From NCBI GenBank assembly GCA_027600665.1, contig JADGJL010000200.1:1-32464 (forward strand): 32,464 bases of DNA. Reading direction: 5' to 3'. Below are positions 3,259 to 32,104 of this stretch, piece after piece (within the stretch, counting starts at the first letter, position 1; every line of letters starts with the position of its first letter). Source of the stretch: Irineochytrium annulatum. Taxonomy: Eukaryota > Chytridiomycota > Chytridiomycetes > Chytridiales > Chytridiaceae. The translations under genes were made by a program, and so were the position numbers. A model generated the notes under the pieces. It saw only the letters and a program-made list of their open reading frames with translations. It did not search any database and was not told where the DNA came from.

Positions 3259-3739
3259 TTAATCGTCATCCTCCTCCGGCTCATCCTTCGTGACCTCGTG
3301 GTAGAGGTCGGAATGTGTTGCGGCCACCTTGACCTTCAGAGCTCTGTTCAAAACCAGCAGTGATCAGCTGTCCACCAGGAGATAAGAACTCAAAGAAAGA
3401 AATGACTGCATCATAGTCAGTTCGATCTAATACACACCTCACCCTCCTGAAGACGCTCTCCAAATCCGCCTTCATCTCCTTCAGCATGGCCGTATAGCTC
3501 TCCACGTTCGCGGCGCACTGCTCGTACCGCCCCGCCGAAAAGTTGTTGAATGCCTCGAGGTTGCGGTTGCTTTGCCGGAGCTTCGTAAGACTTCAATCTA
3601 ATGTTATTTAAGGTATACCATTAAAGGCCTACATATCCTCCTGCTTCTCCAACACGTTCGTCATGTTCTCCCTACCAACGATGGTCGACATCCTCTCGAG
3701 GATGAGGGACGCCGGCGACACCGTCTGTGTGTCGCCCAT
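3259..3739 (-). CDS. KXD1: KxDL motif-containing protein (KXD1)
   Basis: Small coiled-coil protein of the KxDL family; members are subunits of BORC/BLOC-1-type complexes acting on lysosome/endosome positioning. Exons on the minus strand: 3739-3633, 3590-3438, 3343-3259 (114 aa); introns of 42 and 94 nt. Family features seen: an N-terminal helix (LERMSTIVGRENMTNVLEKQ), then LRQSNRNLEAFNNFSAGRY, and the signature MLKEMKADLESVFRRVR, where KADL stands at the KxDL position. The tail is acidic (DEPEEDDD). The start is the Met of MGDTQ; a longer in-frame extension upstream would run through the 5' end of the opposite-strand ribosomal protein gene and is unlikely. Only 56 bp separate its start codon from that of uS11m. 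Confidence 0.85.
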
Positions 3740-3795
3740 CCCAAGCTGAGGCTTGTCCACTTTTTGACGCGAAGTTGATAGTGTGTGAGAGAAAA
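3740..3795. promoter_or_regulatory. Compact divergent promoter KXD1 / uS11m
   Basis: Only 56 bp lie between the two divergent start codons, so both transcripts must start here or inside the opposite gene. No TATA box is visible. Shared bidirectional control is an inference from the spacing. Confidence 0.4.
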
Positions 3796-4623
3796 ATGAT
3801 CGCGAGAACAGCAGGCCTTCTCCGGCGAGCGCGGCCATCCCCATCCCTGTCCCGGTCGTTCGCCGATGACGCATCCCCACCGCGTCGGTTTCCTCCTCCC
3901 GCGGCGCCTTCATCACCCCCCTCCCAATCCGCGACTTCCGCGACCCCGTCCCCGCCGTCGGGGCAGCCGCGGTCCAACAACCCGCCCCGCCGCGCGCCGT
4001 CACCCGCGGGGGAGATGTCGACGGCCGACCTCGTGGACCGGCTTATCAACAACCCGCAGCAGCCAGCCAACTCAGGCGCATCGTTCTTCGGCTCTTTCAC
4101 GAGCATCATCGGCTCCAAGGCCGAGACCGGCTCGGCCTCATCGCTCTTTTACAACCCTAACGCAGCGAAGGACGGCACGGGAGGAACGGATGGCGGCGCG
4201 GGCGGGAGCGCATCGATGTCGACGTCCCAGTTCTGGGGCTCCGCGCTCGAGCGCTCGGTTCGCCTTCACCGGGCTAACCACCACGTCATCCATATCGCGG
4301 CCAACCCCAACAATACCGTCGTCAGCCTGCACAAGCACAGCGGCGAGAAGATCTGCTGGGCTTCTGGCGGGACATGCGGCCTTAAGAAAAGTCAGAGAGG
4401 TGTGAGCGACGTGGGGTATCAGGCGATATTGCAGCTGGCGGAGAAGGCCGAGAAGAAGAATGTTAAGGTGGTGGATGTGGAGGTGAAGATGAAGGGATTT
4501 GGGAAGGGGAGGGAGATGGCTTTCAGGGCTGTCAGGGCTCTGGGTTGGAATTTGAGGAGGATCACGGATGTGACGCCGATCAGGCATGGGGGTTGTAGGC
4601 CGAAGAAGGCGAGGCGGGTTTAG
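3796..4623 (+). CDS. MRPS11: Mitochondrial ribosomal protein uS11m
   Basis: Small-subunit mitochondrial ribosomal protein of the S11 family (yeast Mrps18 equivalent). Single exon, 275 aa. The start is the ATG giving MIARTAGLLRRARPSPSLS, an Arg/Ser-rich, acid-free leader typical of a mitochondrial presequence. Residues about 30-155 are low complexity (Pro, Ser, Ala, Gly). The S11 fold follows from about residue 155: HVIHIAANPNNTVVSLHKH, ICWASGGTCGLKKSQRG, then VKMKGFGKGREMAFRAVRAL and ITDVTPIRHGGCRPKKARRV, all close to bacterial S11 positions. Bacterial S11 is roughly 130 aa, so about half of this protein is extension. It is one of the few intronless genes in the window. Confidence 0.92.
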   Translation: MIARTAGLLRRARPSPSLSRSFADDASPPRRFPPPAAPSSPPSQSATSATPSPPSGQPRSNNPPRRAPSPAGEMSTADLVDRLINNPQQPANSGASFFGSFTSIIGSKAETGSASSLFYNPNAAKDGTGGTDGGAGGSASMSTSQFWGSALERSVRLHRANHHVIHIAANPNNTVVSLHKHSGEKICWASGGTCGLKKSQRGVSDVGYQAILQLAEKAEKKNVKVVDVEVKMKGFGKGREMAFRAVRALGWNLRRITDVTPIRHGGCRPKKARRV

Positions 4624-6737: not shown

Positions 6738-7390
6738 ATGCTAGGCTTCATCCTAAAGATTGGCGTTATCGCCTACACGATTGACTGGTAAGCATCTTCA
6801 TTTCATCGACTTAATCCTCTTGCTTTATATGTTAAAAATGCCATTCCTCCTCCTCCAGGCTCCACTCCCGCTTCCACGACCGCCGCGAACACCCCTCGCA
6901 GCAACGCACGCTCACCATGGGCGAGACCATCGACGAGGGACTCACGCGCACCAAGGAGCACATCGACGACTGGACGCCTCGCCTCCGTTCGTGGTTCAAC
7001 GAGACCTCGTCCGGCTGGGGCCACCAGTACCAGGACGGTGAGAAGGAGGACCCCTGCCGCCGCTGGCGCCGCCGCCACCACCAGCAACGCGCCGACACGA
7101 CCGTCACGACACTCCCCGACGGGCGCGTGGGCGTCGAGATCGACGTTCCCGGCGTGAAGAAGGACGAGCTGGTCGTGTCGGTTGTTGAGGGTCCGAGGGG
7201 TTATGTGGTGGTGAAGGGAGAGAGTAAGGGCGATGAGAACAGGGGCAGGAGGGGACGGAGCGTGGAGAGACGGGTGGAGATGCCGAGGATGAGCGATCTG
7301 GGGGACGTGAAGGCGACGTGTGAGGATGGGGTTTTAAGGGTGGAGGTTGGGAAGAAGGACTTCGAGGGCAGGAGGATCCCAGTGGCGTAG
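6738..7390 (+). CDS. HSP20/alpha-crystallin small heat shock protein
   Basis: ATP-independent holdase chaperone family. Exons 6738-6787 and 6859-7390 with a 71-nt intron; 193 aa. The alpha-crystallin domain covers about residues 95-185: TTLPDGRVGVEIDVPGVKKD, YVVVKGESKG, VKATCEDGVLRVEVGKK, the last being the conserved (A/G)-x-x-x-(D/N)-G-V-L element. Preceding it is an Arg/His-rich stretch (RRWRRRHHQQR). The N terminus, MLGFILKIGVIAYTIDWL, is unusually hydrophobic for a cytosolic small HSP and could be a signal anchor or organelle-targeting segment (inference). The right part of exon 2 lies inside a tandem duplication, and a decayed copy of it is at 10,078-10,468. Confidence 0.88.
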
Positions 7391-7823
7391 TGTGTTAATG
7401 GTTTTGCAGAACGTGATGAGCACGTAGGTCTTAGTTTTCGTCGCCTTGCTATCTTGTCCTTGCTCCCTTCAGTGTTCAAAATTGTCCTCGTAGCATTCAA
7501 ATGTGATTTGTTAAAGTTCCCTTCGGCTGAAAACAGAGCCTCTTTACTTCAAATGCTTTTTTCGACTGTTGAAGAGCCTCCTTGGTGTTTTTTCGCTTAC
7601 ACTTGCGCCGCGATAGCGCGACCTCAGGTAAGAAGGGAGCACATTTGGAATATCAATCAATTTTTTCGGTCCAGCTTGTCCGGAAAAGAACTTGGGATCG
7701 GCTGGTGGACGAAAGAGACTTGCGACACAAAATAACTCTCCTATTTATCCATCCAAGAAACAAACTCTTACAGATAGAAATCCAGGCGACGCGAACGTAA
7801 CTTTCCCAAACAAGAATAAGGCC
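7391..7823. other. 3' flank of HSP20, duplicated
   Basis: No gene supported. It is the shared 3' region of the convergent HSP20 and membrane-protein genes. It aligns with 10,470-10,942, with indels and substitutions, as part of the tandem duplication. Short frames here are not conserved between the two copies. Confidence 0.5.
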
Positions 7824-8685
7824 TCAAACGTCTTCATACCGCCGAGATGCCGCAACAGAATTGGAGGCCACCAGCCCCGTCTGCTCCCCGGACCTCTCCG
7901 ACCCCTTATCCGACCCTTTGCCCTGCTTCCCGCCAGCCGTCAGCGCGGCCCTGTCGACGTTGACAGCGTCCAGCAGAACCCTGTACATGCACATGTAGCT
8001 GAAGACGGCCGCGACGTCCACCGTCGCCCAGAGCTGCAGCCCGGAGACCGGGTCGACAAGGTAGTTCCACGACTCGCAGAAGGCCAGCGCGCCAACGTAG
8101 AGGACGAGCGCGCAAGCCTGCTTGGAGGCCACCTTCCACTTGTTCGTCTCTGCGCCCGTAAGGATGTGGCGGATGACGAGAAGGTCGCAGAGCATGTCGA
8201 ACGCGCACGTCAGGATGCTGGCGGCCGTCAGGACGTCACGGCTCTCCTGCAAGAGGACCATGGGGTCGCCGACGGCTGTCGAGTAGATAGGCATGAGCAT
8301 CGAGGTGAGGCATACCAGGACCGCGAAGGCGCGGACGAGGTAGCGGGCGACGTTGGTGCGGAGGACGAAGCGCTCGAGGCGGTCGAGCTCGAGGTAGACG
8401 AGGATGCAGGCCTGGACGCTCCATAGGAAGTTACTGGCGGCCACGGCGGGCGGGAAGCCGGTGCTGTCGCCGTAGTCGGTGGCTACGTAGCAGGCGATCA
8501 AGACCGTAACTTGGATCAGAGATAGCACGCTCGTTTGGGTGATCGTGCCAGCGAACGTGAGAGCCCATAGGAACAGGCCGCCAACGGAGATACAGGTCCC
8601 GAAAGGTATATCTGCGTTGGACGAGGAGAGGGGAGGCGAAGAGCGTCAGTTAAGTGACAACCGCAGGTAGAGTCGCTTTCACCAT
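7824..8685 (-). CDS. Multi-pass membrane protein, left duplicate (probably 5'-frameshifted)
   Basis: I do not recognise the family. The main exon (about 8611-7824) encodes 234 or more residues with about five to six hydrophobic spans (for example SNFLWSVQACILVYLEL, VRAFAVLVCLTSMLMPIYST, WATVDVAAVFSYMCMYRVLL) and a polar Ser/Gly tail. It is about 85% identical in protein to the right duplicate, and most changes are conservative. A short first exon with ATG at 8685 (MVKATLPA) would join at acceptor 8613/8612, as in the right copy. However, the start of exon 2 is one base shorter here (GGTATATC versus GGGTACATC on the plus strand). The joined frame therefore shifts and hits a stop, and no in-frame Met exists until well inside the protein. 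Either this copy recently lost its start or it uses an unseen first exon. Confidence 0.5.
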
Positions 8686-9509
8686 GATGCCGTCGTTGGA
8701 TGTTCTTCAGCGACGTGCGGTCGCGATGGGGTTTAATACTTCCGCCGCGAGTGGTTGGATGATATAAGCTGGCAGAAATGGGACAATGTGATTTACGCGG
8801 CTTTGCAGATGGGCGCGCCCTCCGTTCCTCATTGTTATCATCACCTCCGCTTCTCTTCACTCATCTTGAACGTGCCTACCTAGGGATGATGCCAAACGTT
8901 TTGGCGTGGTCGAAGGTACCAGACGTCCGTCAGACGTTGATTTCGCCATTCAAAAGTAACTTACCTCGTGTCGTTGTTCGACAGAGAGAAGCGCTGGCTG
9001 TTGACAGGTAACGTATTGGTATTGCCGCTCAAAAGATATAATATCACACCATCCAATGTAAACATTTGTGTCTGCTCATAATTCTACAAAACACTGTGCA
9101 TACGTGGACAACTCTTGACGTATTTTCAATATCGTTTTAGTTTTGTTGTCATAACTAATCGCTTCCGGACTCTCAACCGCGGGTTAAAAAGGACCCATGC
9201 TCCAAAAACCAGCACCGTGGGCGTGCCCGCGTATCCTGCTTCTCATCATGCAAGCCGCTCTGTGATAGACGCGATGTGTCGGGTTCGCGGGTTGTGCACG
9301 CGATGTGTGTAAATAGGGATTAAGCTTTTTATCTGAAAACAAAGCGGCACCTGCGCGATCACCACCGGCCCCAGCGACGCCATCTAACACTATATAGGAT
9401 TTGTGCAATGCTGAGCCTCCACACTGGAAGCGCTTCCCACTCTCCCTTAACTACACAGGTACGCTTTCACCAGCAACACCCGGCACGCATCAACAAATGC
9501 GCCGCGTTC
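8686..9509. other. Promoter side of left membrane-protein copy and spacer to CIA1 fragment
   Basis: No gene supported. The part near 8731-8740 corresponds to the TATA box of the right copy but reads AGTATTAAAC on the minus strand instead of TATAAATA. Much of the spacer aligns with 11,806-12,450. A segment of about 140 bp at 9256-9396 has no counterpart there and contains ACGCGATGTGT twice (near 9269 and 9298). Confidence 0.5.
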
Positions 9510-10077
9510 GCACTTAATGGAGTCCGCTCGATTATCCATACTTTGATGGACCCATCGTCACCCGCCGACGCCAGCAAGTCCCCATGCCCCTCCAGCGGAC
9601 ACCACGACACGCAGTTGATGTCGCACTTCCCGTGCGGCTCGATGATCTGCGTCACGTCCTCAATGTCGCCGTTACCTTAATACAAAAATGAAAGACACAC
9701 CCGGTGAGAGTCACTTAATTTGTTGCAGTGCCGAAGGAAGACTCACATTGACGAAGACTAGCCGAATGGTGTTGTCACCGCCGAGGTCGCGATAAGGCCA
9801 TGGGACTTGGACCAGAACACATCGTAAGTCGCGCGCCCGTGCAGGCTGGCCTGTGTAGATGTGTTGGTGTATTTGGTGTCCCGCAGCGATGTGCCGGAAC
9901 GCGTCCATATCCGCAGTGACCGATCTTTGCTCACAGACGCTGTCAGAGTTTTAGCACGACGGTTGCTTGAGAGCAACGAAGCTGGTAGCAACCTAACCGC
10001 TTTCCCGTCGCGTCGAAGTCCGCCGACCACACTGTCAACGTGGGTCCTCGAAGCGTGTCCATGCAAATCCAGTCGAA
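9510..10077 (-). pseudogene. CIA1 pseudogene, C-terminal fragment
   Basis: Truncated duplicate of the right-hand CIA1 gene, matching its C-terminal WD40 repeats and their introns. Lesions seen: the 5' half is missing at the duplication seam near 10,077; one G is lost where the intact gene reads [10 protein letters not shown], so the frame goes to TSAVTTPFG and stops; and the original TGA stop is changed to TTA, so the last exon reads on for about 17 codons to 9467. Recognisable pieces include [20 protein letters not shown] and [20 protein letters not shown]. It also lacks its own promoter, so it is best treated as a relic. Confidence 0.85.
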
Positions 10078-10468
10078 CTCGCCTCCGGTCGTGGTCAACG
10101 AGACCTCGTCCGGCTGGGCCACCAGTACCACCCTGCCGTCGCTGGCGCCGCCGCCACCACCAGCAACGCGCCGACACAACCGTCACGACACTCCCCGACG
10201 GGCGCTTGGGCATCAACATTGACGTTCCCGGCGTGAAGAAGGACGAGCTGGTCGCGTCGGTTGTTGAGGGTCCGAGTGGTTATGTGGTGGTGAAGGGAGA
10301 GAGTAAGGGCGATGAGATCACGGGCAGGAGGGGCGGAGCGTGGAGAGACGGGTGGAGATGCCGAGGATGAGCGATCTGGGTGCCGCGAAGGCGACGAGTG
10401 AGGATGAGGTTTTAAGGTGGAGATAGGGAAGAAGGACTTCGAGGGCAGATGGATCCCGGTTGCGAGTT
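10078..10468 (+). pseudogene. HSP20 pseudogene, 3' fragment
   Basis: Truncated duplicate of HSP20 exon 2, starting at the seam. It has lost the N-terminal part. It also lacks about 17 bases in the segment corresponding to DGEKEDPC, and it carries a one-base deletion in the Arg/Gly loop (GGGGCGGAG versus GGGGACGGAG) that shifts the frame to a stop by about 10,370. The alpha-crystallin core TTLPDGRLGINIDVPGVKKD is still legible. The original stop codon is gone. It sits head-to-head with the CIA1 pseudogene, both missing their 5' ends. Confidence 0.85.
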
Positions 10469-10942
10469 TGTTGATAGTTTTGCAGAATGATGAGCGCGTA
10501 GGTCTTAGTTTTCGTCGCCTTGCTATCTTGTCCTTGCTCCTTCAGTGTTCAAAACATGTCCTCGTAGCACTCAAATGTGAGTGTCAAATTCCCTTCTGCT
10601 GAAAACAGAGCTTTTTCATCTTAAATGCTTTTTTCATCCGCCGAAAAGCCTCCGTGCTGTTTTTGTTGCTTACAGCTGGGCCTTGATAGCACGACATCAG
10701 CTTCGAAGGGAGCGAACAGGAACGTAGCGAACAACCTTCGTGCGCTCTAATGTGTCCAGAAGGAATAGACGAGGTTCGTTGTTTCCTGTATTTTCCAATA
10801 TACTTCTACGTTCTGCTGGTGTACTACAGGAACTTGCGGCACAAAATACTTCTCCTTTTTACCATCTAAGAAAGAAATTCTAGGGAGAGAAACAAAATTA
10901 GACGATGCGAACGTAACTTTCCTCAAACAACAAACAAAGCCT
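10469..10942. other. Duplicated HSP20 3' flank
   Basis: No gene supported. This is the right-copy equivalent of 7391-7823, diverged by substitutions and indels. It lies between the HSP20 relic and the 3' end of the right membrane-protein gene. Confidence 0.5.
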
Positions 10943-11805
10943 TCAAGCGTCTTCATATCGCCGGGATGACGCAACAGACTTGGAGGCCACAAGCCTCGTC
11001 TGCTCCCCGGACGCATCTGACGCCTTATTCGACCCTCCGCCCTGCTTCCCGTTAGCCGTCACCGCGGTCCTGTCGACGCTGACGATGTCAAGCAGAACCC
11101 GGTACATGCACATGTAGCTGAAGACGGCCGCGACGTCCACCGTCGCCCAGAGCTGCAGCCCCGAGACCGCGTCGACAAGGTAGTTCCACGACTGGCAGAA
11201 GGCCAGCGCCGCCACGTACAGGAGGAGCGCGCAAGTCTGCTTGGAGGCCACCTTCCACTTGTTCGACTCTGCGCAAGTGAGGATGTGGCGGATGACGAGG
11301 ATGTCGCAGAGGATGTCGAACGCGACCGTCAGGATGCTCGCGACCGTCAGGATGTCGCGGCTCTCCTGCAAGAGGACCATGGGGTCCCCGACGGCTGTCG
11401 TGTAGACGGGCACGAGCATCGCCATGAGGCATACCAGAGCCGCGAAGGCGCGGACGAGGTAGCGGGCGACGTCGGTGCGGAGGACGAAGCGCTCGAGGCG
11501 GTCGAGCTCGAGGTAGACGAGGATGCAGGCCTGGACGCTCCATAGGAAGTTACTGGCGGTCACGGCGGGCGGGAAGCCAGTGCTTTGGCCGTAGTCGGTG
11601 GCTACGTAGCAGGCGATCAAGACCGTGACTTGGATCAGGGATAGCACGCTCGTTTGGGTGATCGTGCCAGCGAACGTGAGAGCCCACAGGAAAAGGCCGC
11701 CGACGCAAATACAGGTTCCGTAAGGGTACATCTGCGTTGGACGAGGAGAGGGGAAGCGGGGTGCGTTAGTTGGGTTACAACCGCGGGCATAATTGCTTTC
11801 ACCAT
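10943..11805 (-). CDS. Multi-pass membrane protein, right duplicate (unknown family)
   Basis: Function not recognised. Exon 1 is 11,805-11,782 (MVKAIMPA) and exon 2 is 11,731-10,943; the 50-nt intron has an AACTAACG branch, and a donor three bases further in (11,778) would also keep frame. 270 aa. Six to seven hydrophobic spans are visible, among them GGLFLWALTFAGTITQTSVL, SNFLWSVQACILVYLEL, VRAFAALVCLMAMLVPVY, ILTVASILTVAFDILCDILV, CALLLYVAALAFCQSWNYLV and WATVDVAAVFSYMCMYRVLL. The tail is hydrophilic and Ser/Gly-rich. A TATAAATA box lies about 48 bp upstream of the ATG. About 85% identical in protein to the left copy. A seven-helix-like layout is possible but no receptor motif is seen. Confidence 0.75.
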
Positions 11806-12518
11806 GATGCCGTCGTCGGATCTTGTTCAGCGACGTGCGGCATTGCGGGGGGTATTTATACTTCCGGTGCGAGCGATTTCATGATTGAACCCGGGTAGAA
11901 AGGGGATAATAACAATGTGATTTACGCCGATCTGCAGATGGCCAGGCCTATTTCCTCATTGTTGTCGTCAACTCCGTGATTTTGACCTCTGTCTTGCACA
12001 TGCCAACCAACGGCCGATGCCAAAAGGCTTGGGCGTGGTTGAGCGTAGAAGAGAAGTTGCTTTCGCCATACAAAAGTAAGTTTTAATTTGTGTCGTTGTT
12101 TGAATGCAGAGAAGCGCTGGCTGTTGACAGGTAACGTGTTGGTATTGCTGCACAAATATGTTATTTCACACCATCCAGTGTAAAACTTTGCGTCTGCTCA
12201 TAATCCTGCAAAACACAGTGCATATATGTAGACAACGACCTTTATTTTCAATATCTTTTTTTGCTGTCACAACTGATCGCTTCCGGACTCTCTCCACCGA
12301 GTTCAAAGAACCCCATGCTCCAAAAACCAGCATCGTGGGCGCGCCCGCGTATCCTGCTAATCATCATGCAAGCCGCTAAATGCGATTTGTGCAAAGCTGC
12401 ACCTTGTTAGTTGAGACGCCGTCCCACTCTCCAACAACACCTCCGCGGGACGGGCCACAGGTATGCTTTTCACCTGCAAAAACCCGGCACGCATGAACAA
12501 AGCCGACGCTTTCGCACT
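11806..12518. other. Promoter of right membrane-protein copy and spacer to CIA1
   Basis: No gene supported. It contains the TATA box at 11,853-11,860 and then spacer aligning with 8686-9509. The right end is 3' sequence of CIA1. Open frames here are short and not conserved in the left copy. Confidence 0.5.
11853..11860 (-). promoter_or_regulatory. TATA box of right membrane-protein gene
   Basis: The minus strand reads TATAAATA about 48 bp upstream of the ATG at 11,805. The homologous position in the left copy (8731-8740) reads AGTATTAAAC, a degraded version. Confidence 0.55.
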
Positions 12519-13841
12519 TCATGGAGTCCGCTCGATTCTCCATATTCTGATAGACCCATCGTCACCCGCCGACGCCAGCAAATCCCCATGTCCCTCCAGC
12601 GGACACCACGACACGCAGTTGATGTCGCACTTCCCGTGCGGCTCAATGATCTGCGCCACGTCCTCAATGTCGCCGTTATCCTTAATACACAAATAGAAGA
12701 GATACACCCAGTGAGATTGACCAAGTTTGTCGCGATGCGCAAAGGAAGACTCACATTGACAGAGACTAGCCGAATGGTGTTGTCACCCGCCGAGGTCGCG
12801 ATAAGGCCATGGGACTTGGACCAGGACACATCGTAGATCGCGCGCCGGTGCAGGTTGGCCCGCGTCGAGGTGTTGGCATATTTGGTGTCCCGCAACGATG
12901 TGCCGGAACGCGTCCATATCCGGAGTGACCGATCGTCGCTCACAGAAGCTGCCGGAGTTAGCACGACGGTTGTTTGAAAGCAACGAAGCTGCTACCAACC
13001 TAACCGCTTCCCCGTCGCGTCGAAGTCCACCGACCACACTGTTGACGTGTGTCCTCGAAGCGTGTCCATGCAAATCCAGTCGTCCTCGTCGTCCCGCCAT
13101 ATTTTAATCGTGTCGTCGTAGCTCGCCGACGCCAAAATCTAATGCGACGATGCGAATCAGCCGGACGCGCAACTAAACCCGAAAGAGGTACACACCTCTT
13201 CCGTAGGATGCCATTTGACCATTTTTACATCTTGCGTATGATCTTGAAGCACACTTAGGCATTCAAAGTCGTTATCGCCGATCGCTGCATAATCGTTAGT
13301 TCACGATCACACATCCCAAATCTATACTGTCCAACGCACCCTCCCAAATCCACACGCTCTTATCCCTGCTGCAAGTCGCCAGCAGCGTCCCGCTCACGCT
13401 CCACGCGACGCTCTTGACCTCGTTCTCGTGCCCCTCCAGCGTCGCCACGCACTCAAAGCTCCCCTCGCCGTCCTTCTCCCACACGGCCGTCGTCGCGTCG
13501 AAGCTCGCGCTGGCCAGGAGTTTGCCCGAGGGGTTGAACTCGACAGAACGGATCGTGCGCTTGTGTGCGTCGTCGAGAACGCTGACGCATGTCCATGGAG
13601 CAGATGTGGCGGGTTTAAGCGGGGAGGCATTGGAGGTGGTGATGGAGGATGCTGGGGGCCGCCAAATCCGGATGGAGCGGTCGCCGCCGCAGGAGGCCAG
13701 GGCCAGGTGCGTCGGGTGCCAAGAGACGTGCCAGACCTTCTCCCCGTGACCTGACCGAACGTCCTTAGGAATCTATTCGACTTCTTAATCGTGGATAAGG
13801 GCTCCCGTACCTGTGAGCTCGGCGAGCAGGTGCGATGACAT
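12519..13841 (-). CDS. CIA1: Cytosolic Fe-S assembly WD40 protein CIA1/CIAO1
   Basis: Seven-bladed WD40 scaffold of the cytosolic iron-sulfur protein assembly (CIA) targeting complex, which hands Fe-S clusters to cytosolic and nuclear apoproteins. Six exons on the minus strand: 13,841-13,811, 13,750-13,340, 13,284-13,196, 13,138-13,000, 12,948-12,755, 12,680-12,519 (341 aa). All five introns are 51-74 nt and every join keeps frame. Family landmarks: [102 protein letters not shown], then [20 protein letters not shown] and the last blade [20 protein letters not shown]. The right end of the tandem duplication falls inside exon 4. Its start codon is 74 bp from the divergent metaxin gene. Confidence 0.93.
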
Positions 13842-15073: not shown

Positions 15074-16987
15074 CTATCGCTGCCTTAGCATACGAACTAG
15101 TTGGAGTGCCTCCCGAACGAGTTGGCGTTCACAAGCATACCTACGTAAATAAGCACAGCATTTAGCATGAAAACGATTGCAACCGAAGCATGAAAGAAAA
15201 CAACTTACGTGAGGCCGACGGCAAACATCCCGCACACAACTCCAACGCCCAAATGCATCAACTTGGCCCTGTTGGACGCCCACCCTTCTGATGGGTCGAC
15301 GAAAACAGACTCCGAGTATCGCGTCACCCCCCAAATAGCGATAAACCCTGCCCACATCAGAACACTCCGCGGGAACAGCGACGACATCGTCAACCGCCTA
15401 TTAATGTCCCTCAAAAGCTCAATATGCCCCTCGGTATCCCTCCTCCCACACTCCGGCACGCAATAGTTTAACAAATGATCCCTTATGAACCTCCACGCGA
15501 ACGCAATTCTCATGGTCAAATTCACGCAATTGCTCACCACGAGCCCCACAGCGCCCAAAGCCAACAGCTTGATCGTGACGTACCCCATGGATACGAACAC
15601 GACCCAGCAGACGCCCATCCAATACGACTGATTCGTGAGCACCTGTTTCGAGCCGAGCGCGAGCAGATAGGCTTCCGTGATGCCGTTGACGCCCATGAGG
15701 GGCACGTAGCAGCAGTAGAAGGCGAGGACAAGGGGTGCGGTACCAACGGAGAAGTCATGGCCGGCGAGGACGTGGACAAGGAGGCCGGTGTAGTTAGTGC
15801 CGAGGAAAATAAAGTAGAAGCCGAGGAGGATGTGCAAGCGGATTTGCATAGTTAGGACATTAGTGGCAGTGATGATGTTGTTTTTGAACTGATCTGAAGT
15901 AACAAAAGTTATCACTGTGCTGCTTTAAAGACTTTGTACCATCGACAGTCCCAACGGCTTTTGCGAAATATAGGCGGCCACTCTCTTCTAAAGGTTGAAA
16001 GAGAATTCTTGCAATCAAAGAACCTAGAAACGTGCAATAAACATCTCCGCCAAGAACGAAGACTAACCGTATCTCTCTGCTAACGCGTAATCTCCTTTGA
16101 TCTCCGCCGTGATCATTGACACGGATAGAATTTTGTCGCCCTCGGTCAAAACGTACTTGACGGAGCTTTGGAAGGTAAACGTCCAAGCCAAACTGCTTTG
16201 AACCGGGTCGAACCACTGCCTACCGATGCTTTAGACTGCCGTGCAGGACATAAACGCAATACCCGCGAACTGCTTTCGGGAGAAGTATGGAGACAACAGA
16301 TCCTCTATTCCAGGATGGACGGTACCCCGTCGAGAAGTAGTACAAGTAGCCGCCCACGAGCGTGATAGAAAATGCTAACTGCGACAGCGCGTACGACATC
16401 GCGCCGCCGAACTCTGTGACTTGCGTGTTCCACGTCTGCATCAAGCTGAGGAAAGCGACGACGCTGAAGCACTTGACAAGTACCGCCACGCCCTCGATCC
16501 GAACCCTCCAATTAAACATCATGTTGACCGATGCCAGGACGTAGAATGGTTCCGTGCAGAGCTCAATGAATGCCGCGACGCAATAAACCGCCGCCACCTC
16601 CTTGAAGCTTCCATGATTCAGCACGGCATAGTACACCCCAATAACGGCCGATATCCCCGCCCCAATGACGATCGAGAGATAGCTCAGATTCACGAGCCTC
16701 TGATGCCTCTCCCTCGCGTTCGCATCCGCATTCCCCCTTTTCCCCTGAACCACCGTTGCGACATCATCTCCCGTGCTCCGCAGCAGCGCCATGCGAATGC
16801 TCTCGCGTGACAGAAACGTGATGAGGCTCAGGAGGAACTCCATGTCGATGGACACGACGCCTAGCACGTTGCGCGTGATGTACCGGAGCGCGACCTGGTT
16901 CAGGATGACGGTCGCCATGCGCGTCCAGAGCTGCAGGACGATGAGCTGCAGCGTGCCGCGAATTGATATCGCGAGTGGGTCCGACAT
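15074..16987 (-). CDS. RFT1: RFT1-family ER lipid-oligosaccharide flippase protein
   Basis: Multi-spanning ER membrane protein of the Rft1 family, required for N-glycosylation at the Man5GlcNAc2-PP-dolichol stage. Exons on the minus strand: 16,987-16,271, 16,215-16,068, 16,023-15,940, 15,893-15,209, 15,140-15,074 (566 aa). Hallmarks: FLSRESIRMALLR near the N terminus, FQSSVKYVLTEGDKILSVSM, GSLIARILFQPLEESGRLYF, YVPLMGVNGITEAYLLA and a basic C terminus. About a dozen hydrophobic spans. The 55-nt intron at 16,216-16,270 has a weak GTTCGC donor but is needed to join LLPKA to WFDPVQSSLAWTF; the unspliced frame hits a stop. The gene is convergent with the metaxin gene, 40 bp apart. Length agrees with family members of about 540-570 aa. 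Confidence 0.92.
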
Positions 16988-17038
16988 TGCTGAGTGGAGT
17001 GATCGCGGACACGATTGACAGAAAGCAAATTCGAGGAA

Positions 17039-17865
17039 ATGGCGACGGCTCCAGTCAAGGTCGATGTTCCCGACTTCAGGGTCCCGATCCTGCAGGCGTC
17101 GTGCATGTCGGAGGCGACGATGGCGTTGTTCAAGGGCAGCGTGGCGGGCGCGGTCGTTGGTGGCGCATTTGGCTACTGGATCGACAGGCCTTTGCGGGCA
17201 ACTGTTGCCGATATGGGACGGAAGGGCGCTTTATTCGGTATGCTCCCTTCGTTGTTTCTTTATGATTATTCAGAAGGTCCTTTGCGTTGGATGCCTGCGA
17301 TCTTTGGTTTTTCCTTTTTTTTTTCTTTTTTTTTTTTCTTTCTTATTCTGTTTTTTTGGAGTGCCTTTTCGTTTCCTTCATGCAATTCTTTCCATCACAT
17401 TACTGCCGATATGCTTTGAGTTGGCCTTCGTGTTTGGTATTAACCTTTATTTGGCTCATTTTAGGTGGGATTTGCGGTGTTTACGTGGGGGCTCAATGCG
17501 CAGTCGCTCAAATGCGGCACAAAGACGATATATACAATGCAGGTGCTGCGGGTGCACTCGCCGGACTCATACTCGGAATTCGCGGTGGGTTTTTATATCG
17601 AAGGAGACGTGGCCAGCTGAGGTCTGATTGCTGTTCATCTTGATTAGCGGGGACCATCCAACAAATGGCTGCCCACACGGTCTTCCTCGGTGCACTCTCG
17701 GCGTTTGGTGATGGCATCGGTCGGAACCTGGACCGCCGGCACAAGCCGACGTCAGAGGAGGTGAATGAGAAGAGGTCGGAGACGTTCTTCGAGTGGCCGA
17801 GGAGGGACCCGTATGCAGCTAGGTGGGAGGAGATCAAGAAGCGAGAAGCGGCGAAGGAGGAGTGA
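17039..17865 (+). CDS. NDUFA11: Complex I NDUFA11-like subunit (Tim17/22/23 family)
   Basis: Inner-membrane protein of the Tim17/Tim22/Tim23 superfamily, best matching the NDUFA11 (B14.7/Neurospora 21.3 kDa) accessory subunit of respiratory complex I. Exons 17,039-17,237, 17,465-17,584, 17,648-17,865 (178 aa). Glycine-rich helices: GSVAGAVVGGAFGYWIDR, GICGVYVGAQCAVAQMRHKD, AGAAGALAGLILGIR, VFLGALSAFGDGIGRNLD. The loop RHKDD..NAGAAG resembles the R-x-K-x-D-x-x-N loop of NDUFA11. The C-terminal tail is soluble (FEWPRRDPYAARWEEIKKRE). A relative such as TIM22 is less likely. The first intron is the longest in the window (227 nt) and holds a near-pure T tract at about 17,310-17,357. Confidence 0.82.
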
Positions 17866-18126: not shown

Positions 18127-21100
18127 ATGGAACCGATGCCGCCGCGACCCCCACCAGCGGAAGGGGGGGTTGACGCGGCGACGGCAAGCGCGTCCCCGGA
18201 CTTCCTGTTGGGTCTGTCCGTCGGAGTCGCAGCCCTCATTGCCCTGCAGATTGCCGTGAAGTAAGCTGCATCGCTTCGCTTGTTTGAACTAATTCTTGAC
18301 AGATACTTGGGGCGCATCAAGTATGACTCGCTTACAAACTACATGCCATTGAATGACGAGGAGACTGGATACAAGGACGAGGAGAACCGGGAGGAAGTCG
18401 ACCCGGGCACGCCGATGCCCGAGAGAAAGGCATCTTTGAAGCCTATCGTCCCAGAGCTGCCCGCCGTCCGCCAGTGCCGGCTCGCCGTCCGCGCCATCCT
18501 CGTGCTGACGGAGAACAGCCCTGAGTCGGTTGCGTACACGTCCCTTTTCGGTGGCGACTTCTTTCACGCGGCTTCGACGACGAACACTCTGCGCCCCGGC
18601 GTGGCGGCACCAAGCGACTGCGTCCCGTCCAACGACCTACCTCCCGCTCTTGCGGCAACACCTTCTTTAGATGTCAGCTCTTCACGTCAGCAGCAGTTCT
18701 TCGACGAGACTACGCCACTTTTCGCGGACAAACCGAACTACTCGCAGCCAGCGCTGTCATCAGAATCGCCCAGCACCAGCACGGCGACGCCGTCGAAGCT
18801 CCCTAGGCGGATCGCGTCGAGGTCCGTCACGAGAGCGGCTACGCTCCCGGCTACCCTGCCTTACGAGAGACGCAGTAGCGGCGAGCCCAAACCCAAGCCG
18901 TTGCTGCACTTCGCGAAAGAAACCTTTCTCGACTCGGCGGAGCTTATGACGCCATCGGCCGCCTTCGATCGCGACCAAACGCCGGCCATCGTCCGTTCCG
19001 AGTCCCCGACAGAGGTCGTCACCCCGCTTGTGCAGCGCCGGCGATCCGGTCTGAGCGAGGTCGTCGACTTTCAGAGCTCACAAAGCGCTTCGGAGGACTC
19101 GGGCACGGATAAGTCGTCGCCTAAGCTGCAAGAATCCAATTTTTTCTCGTCGGCTAACCGTCGTAAGCGGAACTTCGGCAGCGGGACGTACCAGAACCTC
19201 GCGAACCTCGGGTCGGGCCTTTGGGGCGGCGGCTCCGGCCACCTGGAGGATGAGGCGCTGAACGCACGGCCGAGATCGACGGACTCGAACCACTTCGCGG
19301 CCCTCTTCCCGTTCTCGCAGACATTCGGGAACTCGTCGCCGACCATGGGTGTTGCGCCGGCAGTTCGACCCCTGCTGGACAAGGTTCATTTCAGCGCTGA
19401 GCATCCGTACGAGTGGGCGATACCGGGGTTCGGGCGGCTGAAGTGCGTTGACTTCGCGCCCCTGGCGTTCAAGAGCATCAGAGAGCGGTTTGGATACTCG
19501 GCGAAGGATCTTCAGGACGCGTTGACCGGTCCATGCGCCGTGGAGTTGACTGTTGGGAAGTCTGATGCAGGTTTGAGCTCGTCGAATCCTTTTTTATTTA
19601 ACAAAGGTTCAGTATTTTTCAAGACCGAGGACAATCGGTTTCTGTTTAAAACGCTTCGTGGTGCCGAGCCTGAAAACTTGCGACAATTCCTCCCCGAGGT
19701 AAGCCCTGAACGATTTGACTCTGCCACGACTATAGACGATCACTGACCTTTCAATCAGTACTTAACTTATGTCGCGAACAACCCCGATACATTTCTACCG
19801 CGATACGTTGGACTGTATTATTTCGAGATGCCGTCAAGACCGAACGGGTCGTCTGCGGACGAGTCCATTCTCAACGTCCTATCTAAGCCCTTCACCGTCG
19901 TTGTTATGGCCAACGTCTTCGACACGGACCTTGAGATCCAACAGAAGTACGACTTTAAGGGTTCGACCGTCGGACGGCAGACCCTGGCCGACGCCGCACG
20001 GGGCGACACGTCGTCGTCGGTGCCGTTGAACTTGAAGCAGATTATTATGGCGTCTCGGAGCTCCTTAGACGCGATGCCTAACCGGAGTGACGCGCACGAT
20101 ATGTCGAGCACGAAGCCGGGACGGCCGCGGCCGAGCTCAAGCGGCGGTTTTACTCCGGGGCCGATCACCGACTTTATGGCGAACGGAGGGGTAAAGGCGG
20201 AGGGGTCAAGTTCAACCTTTCAGGCTTTTGGTACCGCCGATGGTGGAGGTCCCTCGGAGGCTAACTATGATCTGACGGAGCTGACATTGAAGGAGCTGGA
20301 CTTTGAAAAGCTCTTGAAGGCCGGGCGGTCGAATCGTCTTCATCTGGGTCCGAAGAAGGAGGTTTTTATGAAGCAAATCCAGTCAGACCTCGAGCTTTTG
20401 AAGAAGTACGGCTTTATGGACTACAGGTGTGCAAATTTATTGCAGATATGGATGTTTCTGACGACTTTGATTAAAGTGTTCTCGTCGGGATTCATCGGAA
20501 GAAGAAGCCGCCGCCACCACCCACGCCTGCACCACCCGTTGTGAAGACGCCATCCTATACCCCCTTCATGAGCTTCGGAGCGCAGCGTCCCACATCTATT
20601 ATGGTCCTCTTCGGCTCCGGCCAGCAGCCGGCACAACAGTCAGCCCCGCTCCGCTCACCACCCGCCTCGGAAACGATGACGCGCTCCACGTCATCGCGCT
20701 CGTACCTTCAACGACCATCGTCGTCGGGCCCAATAAGCCCGACTGCGCACTCCTACGTCGACCCGCCGACGATGGACCGCGCAGCGGCCGCATCCAGGTC
20801 CTCCGTTCTCTCCGCCCGTGACACGATCCTTTCTATCTCATCCGCCAACGGTCGTCGCGCCGTCGTGGCGGCCCTCACAAACTCGGCCATGGCGACCCTG
20901 AGCAGGCTCGTACCGAAGCAAATCGTCAAGGTCGCAAACGGCGTTCTGTCGGGTGGGGAGGGGTATGGCGGAGATGACGAGGACTCGTCGTCGGTTTCCA
21001 TCAGGATACCGACGCCGGGCGGACACTATGTGTACGACGACGAAGAGGACGATGACTCGGCGTCGGAGCTCTCCGGGTCGCCGGATGCATTGGGGCAGCC

Positions 21101-23504: not shown

Positions 23505-25355
23505 CTAAGCCAACAACAGCCTCCCCTTATTGTTCCGTATCCACAAGTCCATCTCCATCCAGAAAGTGTTCACCGTCTCCGCATCCAGATGCCGCCGCTG
23601 CCGGTGAATCTGCGTGCGAAACGGTTAAACATATTAACGTGAAGTCAGACGCGTCTTCCACCTCTAAAACCTTCACAGTCCACCCCTTGACCTTATCATT
23701 CAACGGCTCGTCCTGGAACTTCAAACAAAAGCCCTTTACTGCAAATGTCATTAGCCCTTGTCTTCTCCTTCCCAACTAATACCCCCACTCACCTTTGGCG
23801 AATATATTAACGGGCGCGCCCCACCTCCATCCCTTAAATTGCCACTCCTGCCCCGTGGCAAACACGGCCACGACGCGATCCCAGTCCTCAGAGCTCTTTA
23901 GCTTGTCTATTGAGTCGATCACCTGGAACCTGCGCAGAGCGCCGGCGGGCACGTTGCCCGTGCGTTCAAGTATCAGTGTTGGGGGTTTGGCAGCGCCGCG
24001 TTTAAGGAAGTCTTCATTGGCGATATATCTGCGCGGGGTAGTGTAAGTTTTGGGAAAGACGCATGGCATTGTTGAAGACGTCGTCTCCAGCCACTCCCCA
24101 AAGGACAACGACTCGACAACTCATTTCCACCGACACGTCCTCGAACCCCGCCAGCACTCCGCGTTTCCTCTCATTCTAACCGCTCGGCTGGAAACTTGCA
24201 CTCACTTTGATTCCACCAAGAAGGTCTTCACGTTATGCATCGTTAGCGTCGCCTGCGCGGCGGCCGGCACAACAATAATCGGCAGCTTCGCTTCCGCCTG
24301 CTTATTGCCGGGCTTGTTCTGTCTAAAAGACTGGGCGTATCGTCCGGGCGGGGCTGATGATGCTGTTGATGATGGTTGCCGAGAGGTCGCGGGAGGCGCG
24401 CGGGATGAGGATGAGGGATGCACGTTGGGAGCGGAGGTGGAGGTGATATTGGGCTTAGAGGAGGTGGGTTTGGGGCGGAGAAAGTCGTTAGAATGTTTCA
24501 GGGCTGATGTGAAGCCCTGTGAGAGGTGTTAGAAAGAGATCAATGCAGGGATGGATGTACCTTGGATGATTTTAGAGAAAGAAAGTTTTGCAGCGTCGTC
24601 AGGCTGCGTTCCTTTGATCTAATCTTCCGCACGGCTTCCATGTCCTATTTCGTTAACCCAGTCAACACTAGCGAGTGCAAGCTATGCCAAACCTCATCAA
24701 TCTCCATCCTCTGCCGTTTACTCAACACGGGCTCCTGCTCCTCCGGTCTCCTCTTGCCCACGACCTGCCCATTCGCTTCCACTGCCTTCCCATTCAGCCC
24801 CGTTCCCGATGCAACCGGCGCTGCACCACCCGCCACCGCCAACGCGCCCGCCTTGGCGGCTGCGCTTGCAGCTTGCACAGCCCCCGCCCCTCCATCCACA
24901 TCCATAGCATCCCCCGCACCATCCGCGCTCCGCCCTCCATCGACCCACTGGCTCGACTTGCTCACGCCCGTCAAATACTCCAGCAGATCCCGCCGATCCA
25001 GCAGACTGACGACGGGCACGTCCATCTTCACCGGTCCCCACGTCGCAAAGCTGCGCTGCATGTATGCGGAATGCTCAAGTCCGCGGCAGGTGAGGAAGAA
25101 CAGGAGGGTTTGGAGCGTGTAATCCTTGTAGTTCGACGGGTGAGTGACAGGGTATGTTGTCCCGGACAGGATCACGGAAGCGGCGTCAGGGAGCGTAGTG
25201 GTCGGTTGCGATGAGGCGGTGAGGAGTGGGGGCAGGGCGTCGGGCGGTAGGGACATAGTGGCGGCTCGGAGGAGCTTGACGAGAGGGGGCCGGGAGGCCG
25301 CGGCCGCGTCCCCCGGTGCCGACGCCGGCGCGGTCCCGTTCATCGCGCCGTTCAT
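23505..25355 (-). CDS. CDC73: Paf1 complex subunit CDC73 (parafibromin)
   Basis: Nuclear Paf1-complex subunit acting in RNA polymerase II elongation and histone modification. Exons on the minus strand: 25,355-24,693, 24,644-24,561, 24,516-24,206, 24,028-23,793, 23,738-23,662, 23,609-23,505 (491 aa). N-terminal domain: PPLVKLLRAATMS, then HPSNYKDYTLQTLLFFLTC and VKMDVPVVSLLDRRDLLEYL. Middle: an Ala/Gly-rich linker, KRRPEEQEPVLSKRQRMEID (possible NLS), and LPIIVVPAAAQATLTMHNVK. C-terminal Ras-like domain: EDWDRVVAVFATGQEWQFKG, PVNIFAKVKGFCLKFQDEPL, WTVKVLEIHRQRRHLD, FWMEMDLWIRNN. The intron at 24,029-24,205 is long for this locus (177 nt). The first exon boundary (GTTTGG donor at 24,692) was chosen to avoid an in-frame stop. 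Confidence 0.92.
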
Positions 25356-25477
25356 TTGATTGAGATGGTTGATGGGAAACTCAAGCAATTGACGAATAGT
25401 GGACGAGTTCGACTGTGTCTGAAAAAACCTTCCAACCCAAGTCCCATTGACCTCCCTGAACGACCGGTGTCGCTGCG
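25356..25477. promoter_or_regulatory. Divergent promoter CDC73 / zinc finger gene
   Basis: 122 bp between divergent start codons. No TATA box seen. Likely shared promoter region by position only. Confidence 0.35.
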
Positions 25478-25932
25478 ATGGGTAACGTGCGTATCTCGCT
25501 GCTTGGTATGATTCATTGCTGACGAATTCGACAGGGTGCCAGAGCTCAGCAGAAGAGGGACAGGGCGAAAGACAATGCACCCAAGGAAGCCAAATCTCAG
25601 TTAAAGCAGGTGGAGAGGGGAATCCGGCCATGATAGGAATCGATGCACTGACGGTAGCTCACAGAATGAGGCGGCAAAGAACATCATCTGCACCATCTGT
25701 CGGCAGACCTTCTTGAAAACTATCCGGGAAAAGGTGCGCTTTTTGGGGAATGCCGTTCATGCTCGCTAACTTTCCGTTAAGGCATTGCAGGAGCACATCA
25801 CGAGCAAGGTATGTTTCATTCTTCAATTCTTGTTTTTACGTTGTCGGTTTTACTAATCATTTTTTTTCTTGTACACAGCATACCGGCAAAACCGTCGCGG
25901 ATTGTTTCCCGGGTGTTTCCGTTTTGCCTTGA
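25478..25932 (+). CDS. Small zinc finger protein (At2g23090/ZNF706-like)
   Basis: Short basic protein of the SERF/4F5-related small zinc finger group. Five tiny exons: 25,478-25,486, 25,535-25,609, 25,665-25,733, 25,782-25,808, 25,879-25,932 (77 aa). The first exon carries only MGN. Layout: N-terminal GARAQQKRDRAKDNAPKEAK (4F5-like), then KNIICTICRQTFLKTIRE and HITSKHTGKTVADCFPG. Putative zinc ligands form C-x2-C-x15-H-x4-H. The family's biochemical role is poorly defined. It would be missed by ORF-only gene finding because no single exon exceeds 75 nt. Confidence 0.87.
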
Positions 25933-31387: not shown

Positions 31388-31393
31388 TAACTA

Positions 31394-32104
31394 ATGTGTA
31401 CATCAGCCGGCCCAGTCCGTTCCAACCCAGTCACGTCCACCTCCACAACGACCCCTCTTCTTCCCACCAGCGTCGCGTCGTCGTCCCCTTGCGTCTTTTG
31501 CCGAATCGCATCCCCGGGCTCTTTTGAGCCTGCCAGCATCGTTTACGAAGACACCGAAGTCGTCGCGTTCCGGGACAGGTCGCCAGCGGGGAAGGAGCAC
31601 CTGCTCGTGGTGCCGAGAGCACATGTGGGGAGCGTGATGGACTTGACTTGGAGGGACGTCGGGCTCGTCAGGAGGCTGAGGAACGTGGCGCGGGAGGTTT
31701 TGACTAGGGATGGCTTTGAGGAGGTGAGCGATGATAAGGGGGACCTTATCGTCATTCGTAGATTGGCTCATTCATCCGCACATTTGTGGTTTGTTTTTCA
31801 GCACAATCAACGTATCGGCTTCCACGTCCCTCCGTTTACAACGGTGGCGCATCTGCACCTGCACGCGATCGGCCTCCCATTCCGCTCGAATCTCCGCGCT
31901 CTGAAATACCCCATTGACCCGGCCCGCCGTGACGCCGGCAACGGCAGCAGCGGCGACGGATCGAGAACTCAGTGGTGGATGGGCTGTCTGGGTATGGTGC
32001 GGTGGCAGCGGTGGTTCGTGGAGGTCGACGCCGTTATTGAGGATCTGGAGAGCGCGGCGGACGTCGGCTGGAAGGGCGGGTGGAGATGGGGGATGGGACG
32101 TTGA
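31394..32104 (+). CDS. HINT3: HINT3-like HIT hydrolase
   Basis: Histidine-triad nucleotide hydrolase, closest in layout to HINT3 adenosine-5'-monophosphoramidases. Exons 31,394-31,723 and 31,802-32,104 (210 aa). Motifs: CVFCRIASPG (zinc-type cysteine pair), IVYEDTEVVAFRDRSPAGKE, HLLVVPRAHVGSV, GFHVPPFTTVAHLHLHAIGL with the catalytic H-x-H-x-H. The tail WWMGCLGMVRWQRWFVEVDA continues the family's C-terminal helix. The 78-nt intron (31,724-31,801, GTGAGC...TTTCAG) is a multiple of three with no stop, so an unspliced mRNA would still give a full-length protein with 26 extra residues just before the core; splicing restores FEEHNQRIGFHVPPF, matching the family. Confidence 0.87.
   Translation: MCTSAGPVRSNPVTSTSTTTPLLPTSVASSSPCVFCRIASPGSFEPASIVYEDTEVVAFRDRSPAGKEHLLVVPRAHVGSVMDLTWRDVGLVRRLRNVAREVLTRDGFEEVSDDKGDLIVIRRLAHSSAHLWFVFQHNQRIGFHVPPFTTVAHLHLHAIGLPFRSNLRALKYPIDPARRDAGNGSSGDGSRTQWWMGCLGMVRWQRWFVEVDAVIEDLESAADVGWKGGWRWGMGR

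Follow-up and report, generated by a model that had tools for sequence, protein, structure and literature searches.

Layout of the tandem duplication and its outer genes

The window analysed here, a stretch of 32,464 bases that makes up one whole contig of the chytrid Irineochytrium annulatum, contains a whole HSP20 gene, a whole CIA1 gene, a truncated copy of each of them and two copies of an orphan gene, arranged around two adjacent copies of a unit of about 3.1 kb. A self-BLASTN search of the whole window (E up to 1e-3) revealed a long direct diagonal composed of two blocks, 6978–9259 against 10078–12377 (82.7% identity, E = 0) and 9454–10081 against 12456–13088 (89.1% identity, E = 0). The global alignment indicated the same order of both units from end to end, the only poorly aligning patch being 9259–9456, with 82 aligned sites and 116 gap bases; a genome search with 9240–9470 (E up to 1) returned only this segment itself and, accordingly, no mobile element in the patch. 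Copy 1 of the unit occupies 6978–10077 (3100 bp) and copy 2 occupies 10078–13088, the homology fading at 13082–13088. Two adjacent copies in one orientation and one order constitute a tandem segmental duplication, and the head-to-tail duplication of 3.1 kb that had been proposed in a sequence-only reading is borne out, with coordinates accurate within a few bases; the dot-plot comparison of 6978–10077 with 10078–13082 suggested there was run and showed continuous order.

The unit extends, as that reading had it, from inside HSP20 to inside CIA1, its ends lying in HSP20 exon 2 and CIA1 exon 4, and complete models were obtained for both outer genes, which had been described as whole. The HSP20 gene (6738–7390, plus strand; exons 6738–6787 and 6859–7390) encodes a protein of 193 aa containing an alpha-crystallin domain (Pfam HSP20, 47.7 bits against a cut-off of 20.8, E = 1.8e-12). 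The CIA1 gene (12519–13841, minus strand) consists of six exons, encodes 341 aa and is identical to the NCBI model HK101_004252; its product is a full-length CIA1/CIAO1 protein, a WD40 protein of cytosolic iron-sulfur assembly, with 61% identity over 98% to a Borealophlyctis protein of that name. The six introns of these two genes are 51–74 nt long. Among the matches listed, CIA1 has no more than 42% identity to sequences on other contigs, the relic described below being its only close copy, and HSP20 has, besides its relic, two matches elsewhere in the genome at 40–41%. HSP20 and CIA1 point inward from opposite ends of the unit, so the outer copies keep their 5′ parts and the inner copies lose them.

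The only other self-match in the window at E up to 1e-3 is a pair of 34-bp direct repeats at 787–874, 88% identical, and a tRNA scan found no tRNA genes. The neighbourhood is ordinary: among 10 surrounding open frames checked, four had no match and one had a weak match, and the others include matches to ribosomal protein S11 (3706–4620, plus strand), Rft1 (16223–17230, minus strand), PIP5K (19747–20541, plus strand), the N-terminus of CDC73 (24648–25658, minus strand) and DcpS/HIT (31391–32101, plus strand).

The seam and the two relics

Two 5′-truncated relics, CIA1 on the minus strand and HSP20 on the plus strand, lie back to back and meet at about 10,077, where the sequence-only reading had placed them. 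The HSP20 relic (10082–10466) is missing exon 1 together with 119 nt of exon 2, and comparison with the intact gene shows six deletions (1, 1, 19, 1, 1 and 1 bp), the final one inside the stop codon; it is thus a pseudogene with a broken frame. The CIA1 relic (9515–10075) retains part of exon 4, exons 5 and 6 and introns 4 and 5; it has no 5′ end, exons 1–3 and 56 of the 139 nt of exon 4 being absent, and its stop codon is gone. One clear coding deletion of 1 bp is located near 9777, and a second one at the start of exon 6 is possible, depending on the alignment. All seven clear frame-breaking indels of the two relics are deletions.

The CIA1 relic and the intact gene differ at 17 residues, of which the one at the seam was set aside. 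At six of the remaining 16 (residues 207, 209, 228, 261, 265 and 333), the relic has replaced an amino acid found in at least 50 of the 61 homologues compared, and at none of the 16 has the intact protein done so; at residues 248 and 258, the residue of the relic is slightly commoner among the homologues, few of which carry either. The homology search gave 4278 matches, of which 120 were listed; these 61 sequences are the ones that come next in the list behind the window's own protein. Truncation, a broken frame and the loss of conserved residues characterise the CIA1 copy as a pseudogene, although not a processed one, since its introns are still in place. The relic-versus-intact omega values, 0.47 for HSP20 and 0.39 for CIA1, are near the expectation for one neutral and one constrained branch. 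Judging from their sequences, both relics are dead. Dead-on-arrival pseudogenes are copies that lack a 5′ end and decay, and the relics resemble them in both respects, as well as in the uniform direction of their clear frame-breaking indels, but they were made by DNA duplication, unlike dead-on-arrival pseudogenes made by transposons or as retrocopies. On a small scale, they document naturally occurring neutral decay in a chytrid genome.

At the seam itself (10076–10081), the final base clearly belonging to the right-hand parent is 10075; it is followed by AA (10076–10077), which matches neither parent, and by CTCG (10078–10081), which is common to both parental ends. Placed in register, these ends share CCTCG. 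Random pairs of sites in the window share at least 5 bp in 0.5% of cases and at least 4 bp in 1.7%. The seam would fit a microhomology-mediated join, short of proof because the register was picked by eye. An open stretch of 180 codons with no ATG (9828–10370, plus strand) spans the seam, running antisense to the CIA1 relic and then partly in the frame of the HSP20 relic.

The middle gene, its lost start codon and a public fusion model

The orphan gene in the middle is the sole whole gene of the unit. Its first copy, TM1 (7824–8611, minus strand), has lost its start codon and one base near 8601, the rest of the frame being open; the second copy, TM2 (10943–11731, minus strand), has an ATG and encodes 262 aa. 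The protein is hydrophobic, and a low-confidence structural model (mean pLDDT 40, built from three rows) contains about seven helices; on account of this hydrophobicity and these helices, the gene probably encodes a multi-pass membrane protein. Pfam searches did not reveal any family in it at E up to 1; DUF6534, a candidate family, had no match here, but none in 14 control genomes either, so that its absence carries no weight. A search of a database of 5.8 billion proteins with a single query (2997 candidates scored) returned three homologues, all from I. annulatum, and a four-row profile returned the same three among the best 7997 scored. In a six-frame search of the genome, four copies were found, namely TM1, TM2 and, at 61% identity, a tandem pair on another contig (C353, 15321–17503), whose members share about 60% identity. 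The public proteins returned included just one of these two (HK101_006910), which shows that the database is incomplete even for this genome. Homology between the window and C353 is limited to the middle gene (E up to 1e-3), with no wider duplication common to both. The C353 copies have 60% identity to each other against 58–62% to TM1 and TM2; they are as distant mutually as they are from the copies in the window, and the C353 pair is therefore the older one.

At the position where TM2 and the two C353 paralogues all carry their ATG, TM1 has ATA; a few codons past it, TM1 is one base short and is then open to the common stop. The open stretch of TM1 comprises 273 codons and its first internal methionine is residue 116. 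Within 300 bases, and with GTA or GTG as donor, two candidates for an in-phase upstream exon were found; their introns would measure 268 and 249 nt. The two copies had been presented as a gene pair; since TM1 has no start codon, the pair is unequal, and only TM2 combines a start with an open frame. The plain reading is that the start was lost recently, and the apparent loss may also be a sequence error.

Apart from the one near its start, TM1 contains no indel, against about 7–7.6 expected at the rate of the relics. The chance of at most one indel is 0.004 if eight relic deletions are counted, including the alignment-dependent second one at the start of CIA1 exon 6, and about 0.01, by hand arithmetic, if seven are counted; direct comparison of the indel rates of TM1 and the relics gave p = 0.040. 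When the changes were polarised with the C353 copies, which are distant outgroups, nine replacement and 11 silent changes were assigned to TM1 and 21 and nine to TM2, with 12 and eight unassigned; p was 0.043 for the difference in replacement counts between the two copies and 0.089 for the full two-by-two table. A branch model over 230 codons estimated omega at 0.09 for TM1 and 1.2 for TM2; omega = 1 could be rejected on the TM1 branch (p = 0.011) but not on that of TM2, and the difference between the two estimates is not significant (p = 0.096). TM2 has no indel relative to the C353 frame and is therefore hardly neutral.

The public record contains a model, HK101_004250 (317 aa, with a WD40 match), which joins exon 6 of the CIA1 relic to TM1 (window 8611–9822, minus strand). 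Were TM1 expressed as such a fusion, the absence of a stop codon in the relic, a phase that fits the one-base loss in TM1 and the omega below 1 on the TM1 branch would all be accommodated; the product would be a new gene combining the last propeller blade of CIA1 with a multi-pass membrane protein, which would account for purifying selection on TM1 while TM2 changed faster, a suggestion that we regard as a long shot. The model requires, however, an intron of 902 nt, far from the 51–74 nt of the HSP20 and CIA1 introns, and apparently also an initial exon of just 4 nt at 9822, as deduced from the peptide, and the CIA1 relic to which it is anchored is promoterless and decayed. Expression of the fusion is thus very unlikely, and HK101_004250 is probably a prediction artefact. 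It illustrates how, through automatic annotation, a dead gene remnant can enter public databases as part of a fusion gene that is likely false.

Uneven divergence and the origin of the locus

The copies of the unit differ by some 6–21%, varying by region. Differing sites number 203 of 956 in spacers, 25 of 125 in CIA1 introns, 72 of 785 in the TM frame, 34 of 436 in CIA1 exons and 23 of 388 in the HSP20 relic. The TM frame contains the longest stretch of complete identity, 86 bp. Silent divergence is 0.11 for HSP20, 0.16 for CIA1 and 0.15 for TM, with overlapping intervals. Because coding DNA is richer in G+C (0.63–0.66) than the spacers (0.43–0.49), a rate difference may account for part of this unevenness. 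It does not explain the HSP20 3′ flank (7391–7500 against 10466–10574), where 6 of 106 sites differ against 84 of 323 in the adjoining spacer (p = 1.8e-6, neighbouring sites being treated as independent in these site tests), since G+C is 0.44 in both. The HSP20 relic together with its 3′ flank differs at 29 of 494 sites, compared with 197 of 850 in the other spacers. The likeliest cause is a later gene conversion that homogenised the HSP20 end, hidden constraint on the flank being the alternative. One event had been taken to explain the two pseudogenes and the gene pair; this stands for the geometry, and one event with one clock alone is insufficient, given divergence this uneven.

The locus is very probably the outcome of a single old direct segmental duplication. 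About 3.1 kb, bounded by HSP20 exon 2 and CIA1 exon 4, would have been copied head-to-tail and joined at the seam via microhomology. The outer HSP20 and CIA1 would have retained their promoters and 5′ exons, the inner copies would have arisen without them and decayed as dead-on-arrival pseudogenes, and the middle gene would have been doubled, both frames staying open and TM1 later losing its start; gene conversion after the duplication would then have homogenised the HSP20 end. On this interpretation, the locus cleanly exemplifies what a single tandem duplication can produce: the outer genes remain whole, the seam holds dead gene fragments, and the gene in the interior is doubled.

A close relative of this explanation, differing only in the number of events, is a tandem duplication in several steps, in which a later exchange replaced the HSP20 end. 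It draws on the far lower divergence of that end and its 3′ flank than of the adjoining spacer at equal G+C, but a single seam and a single pair of outer ends were found, the CIA1 introns have diverged to the same extent as the spacers, and gene conversion is enough without a second duplication, so we consider it unlikely. Still less probable is an assembly artefact, the draft having placed two divergent haplotypes of a single locus head-to-tail. The genome is indeed a draft (26.9 Mb in 1082 contigs), but misjoined haplotypes should carry working alleles, and here both copies at the seam are decayed and the outer ones are intact: the HSP20 relic has its six deletions, the CIA1 relic its one clear deletion, and conserved CIA1 residues were lost in the relic only. 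The unit, moreover, occurs nowhere else in the genome, except for the C353 paralogues of the middle gene. Retroposition can be dismissed, as the sequence-only reading had argued in favour of DNA-level copying, since CIA1 introns 4 and 5 and the spacers are present in both units in the same order along with the exons, and nothing was found in its favour.

As a tandem segmental duplication, the locus is ordinary and of an already described kind; what is particular to it is the orphan gene, its beheaded copy and the doubtful fusion model. A literature search on chytrid tandem duplications with a pseudogene made no comparable locus evident. Two Drosophila studies (PMC4503668, PMC5460883) describe tandem duplications that cut the genes at their borders and leave gene fragments, sometimes chimeric constructs, at the new junction. 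The present locus is like them in its head-to-tail copies with ends inside genes; it is unlike the cases described there in that both fragments are 5′-truncated and point away from each other. The duplications treated there segregate in population samples, whereas the copies here are 6–21% apart by region. In Drosophila melanogaster, a segmental duplication over two adjacent genes gave rise to the chimera Sdic, followed by gene conversion (PMC7475035). The two loci share a pseudogene-like fragment beside intact parents and, probably for the present locus, gene conversion afterwards; Sdic, a chimeric gene, belongs to an array of many copies, whereas the unit described here has two copies and its chimera exists as a gene model alone.
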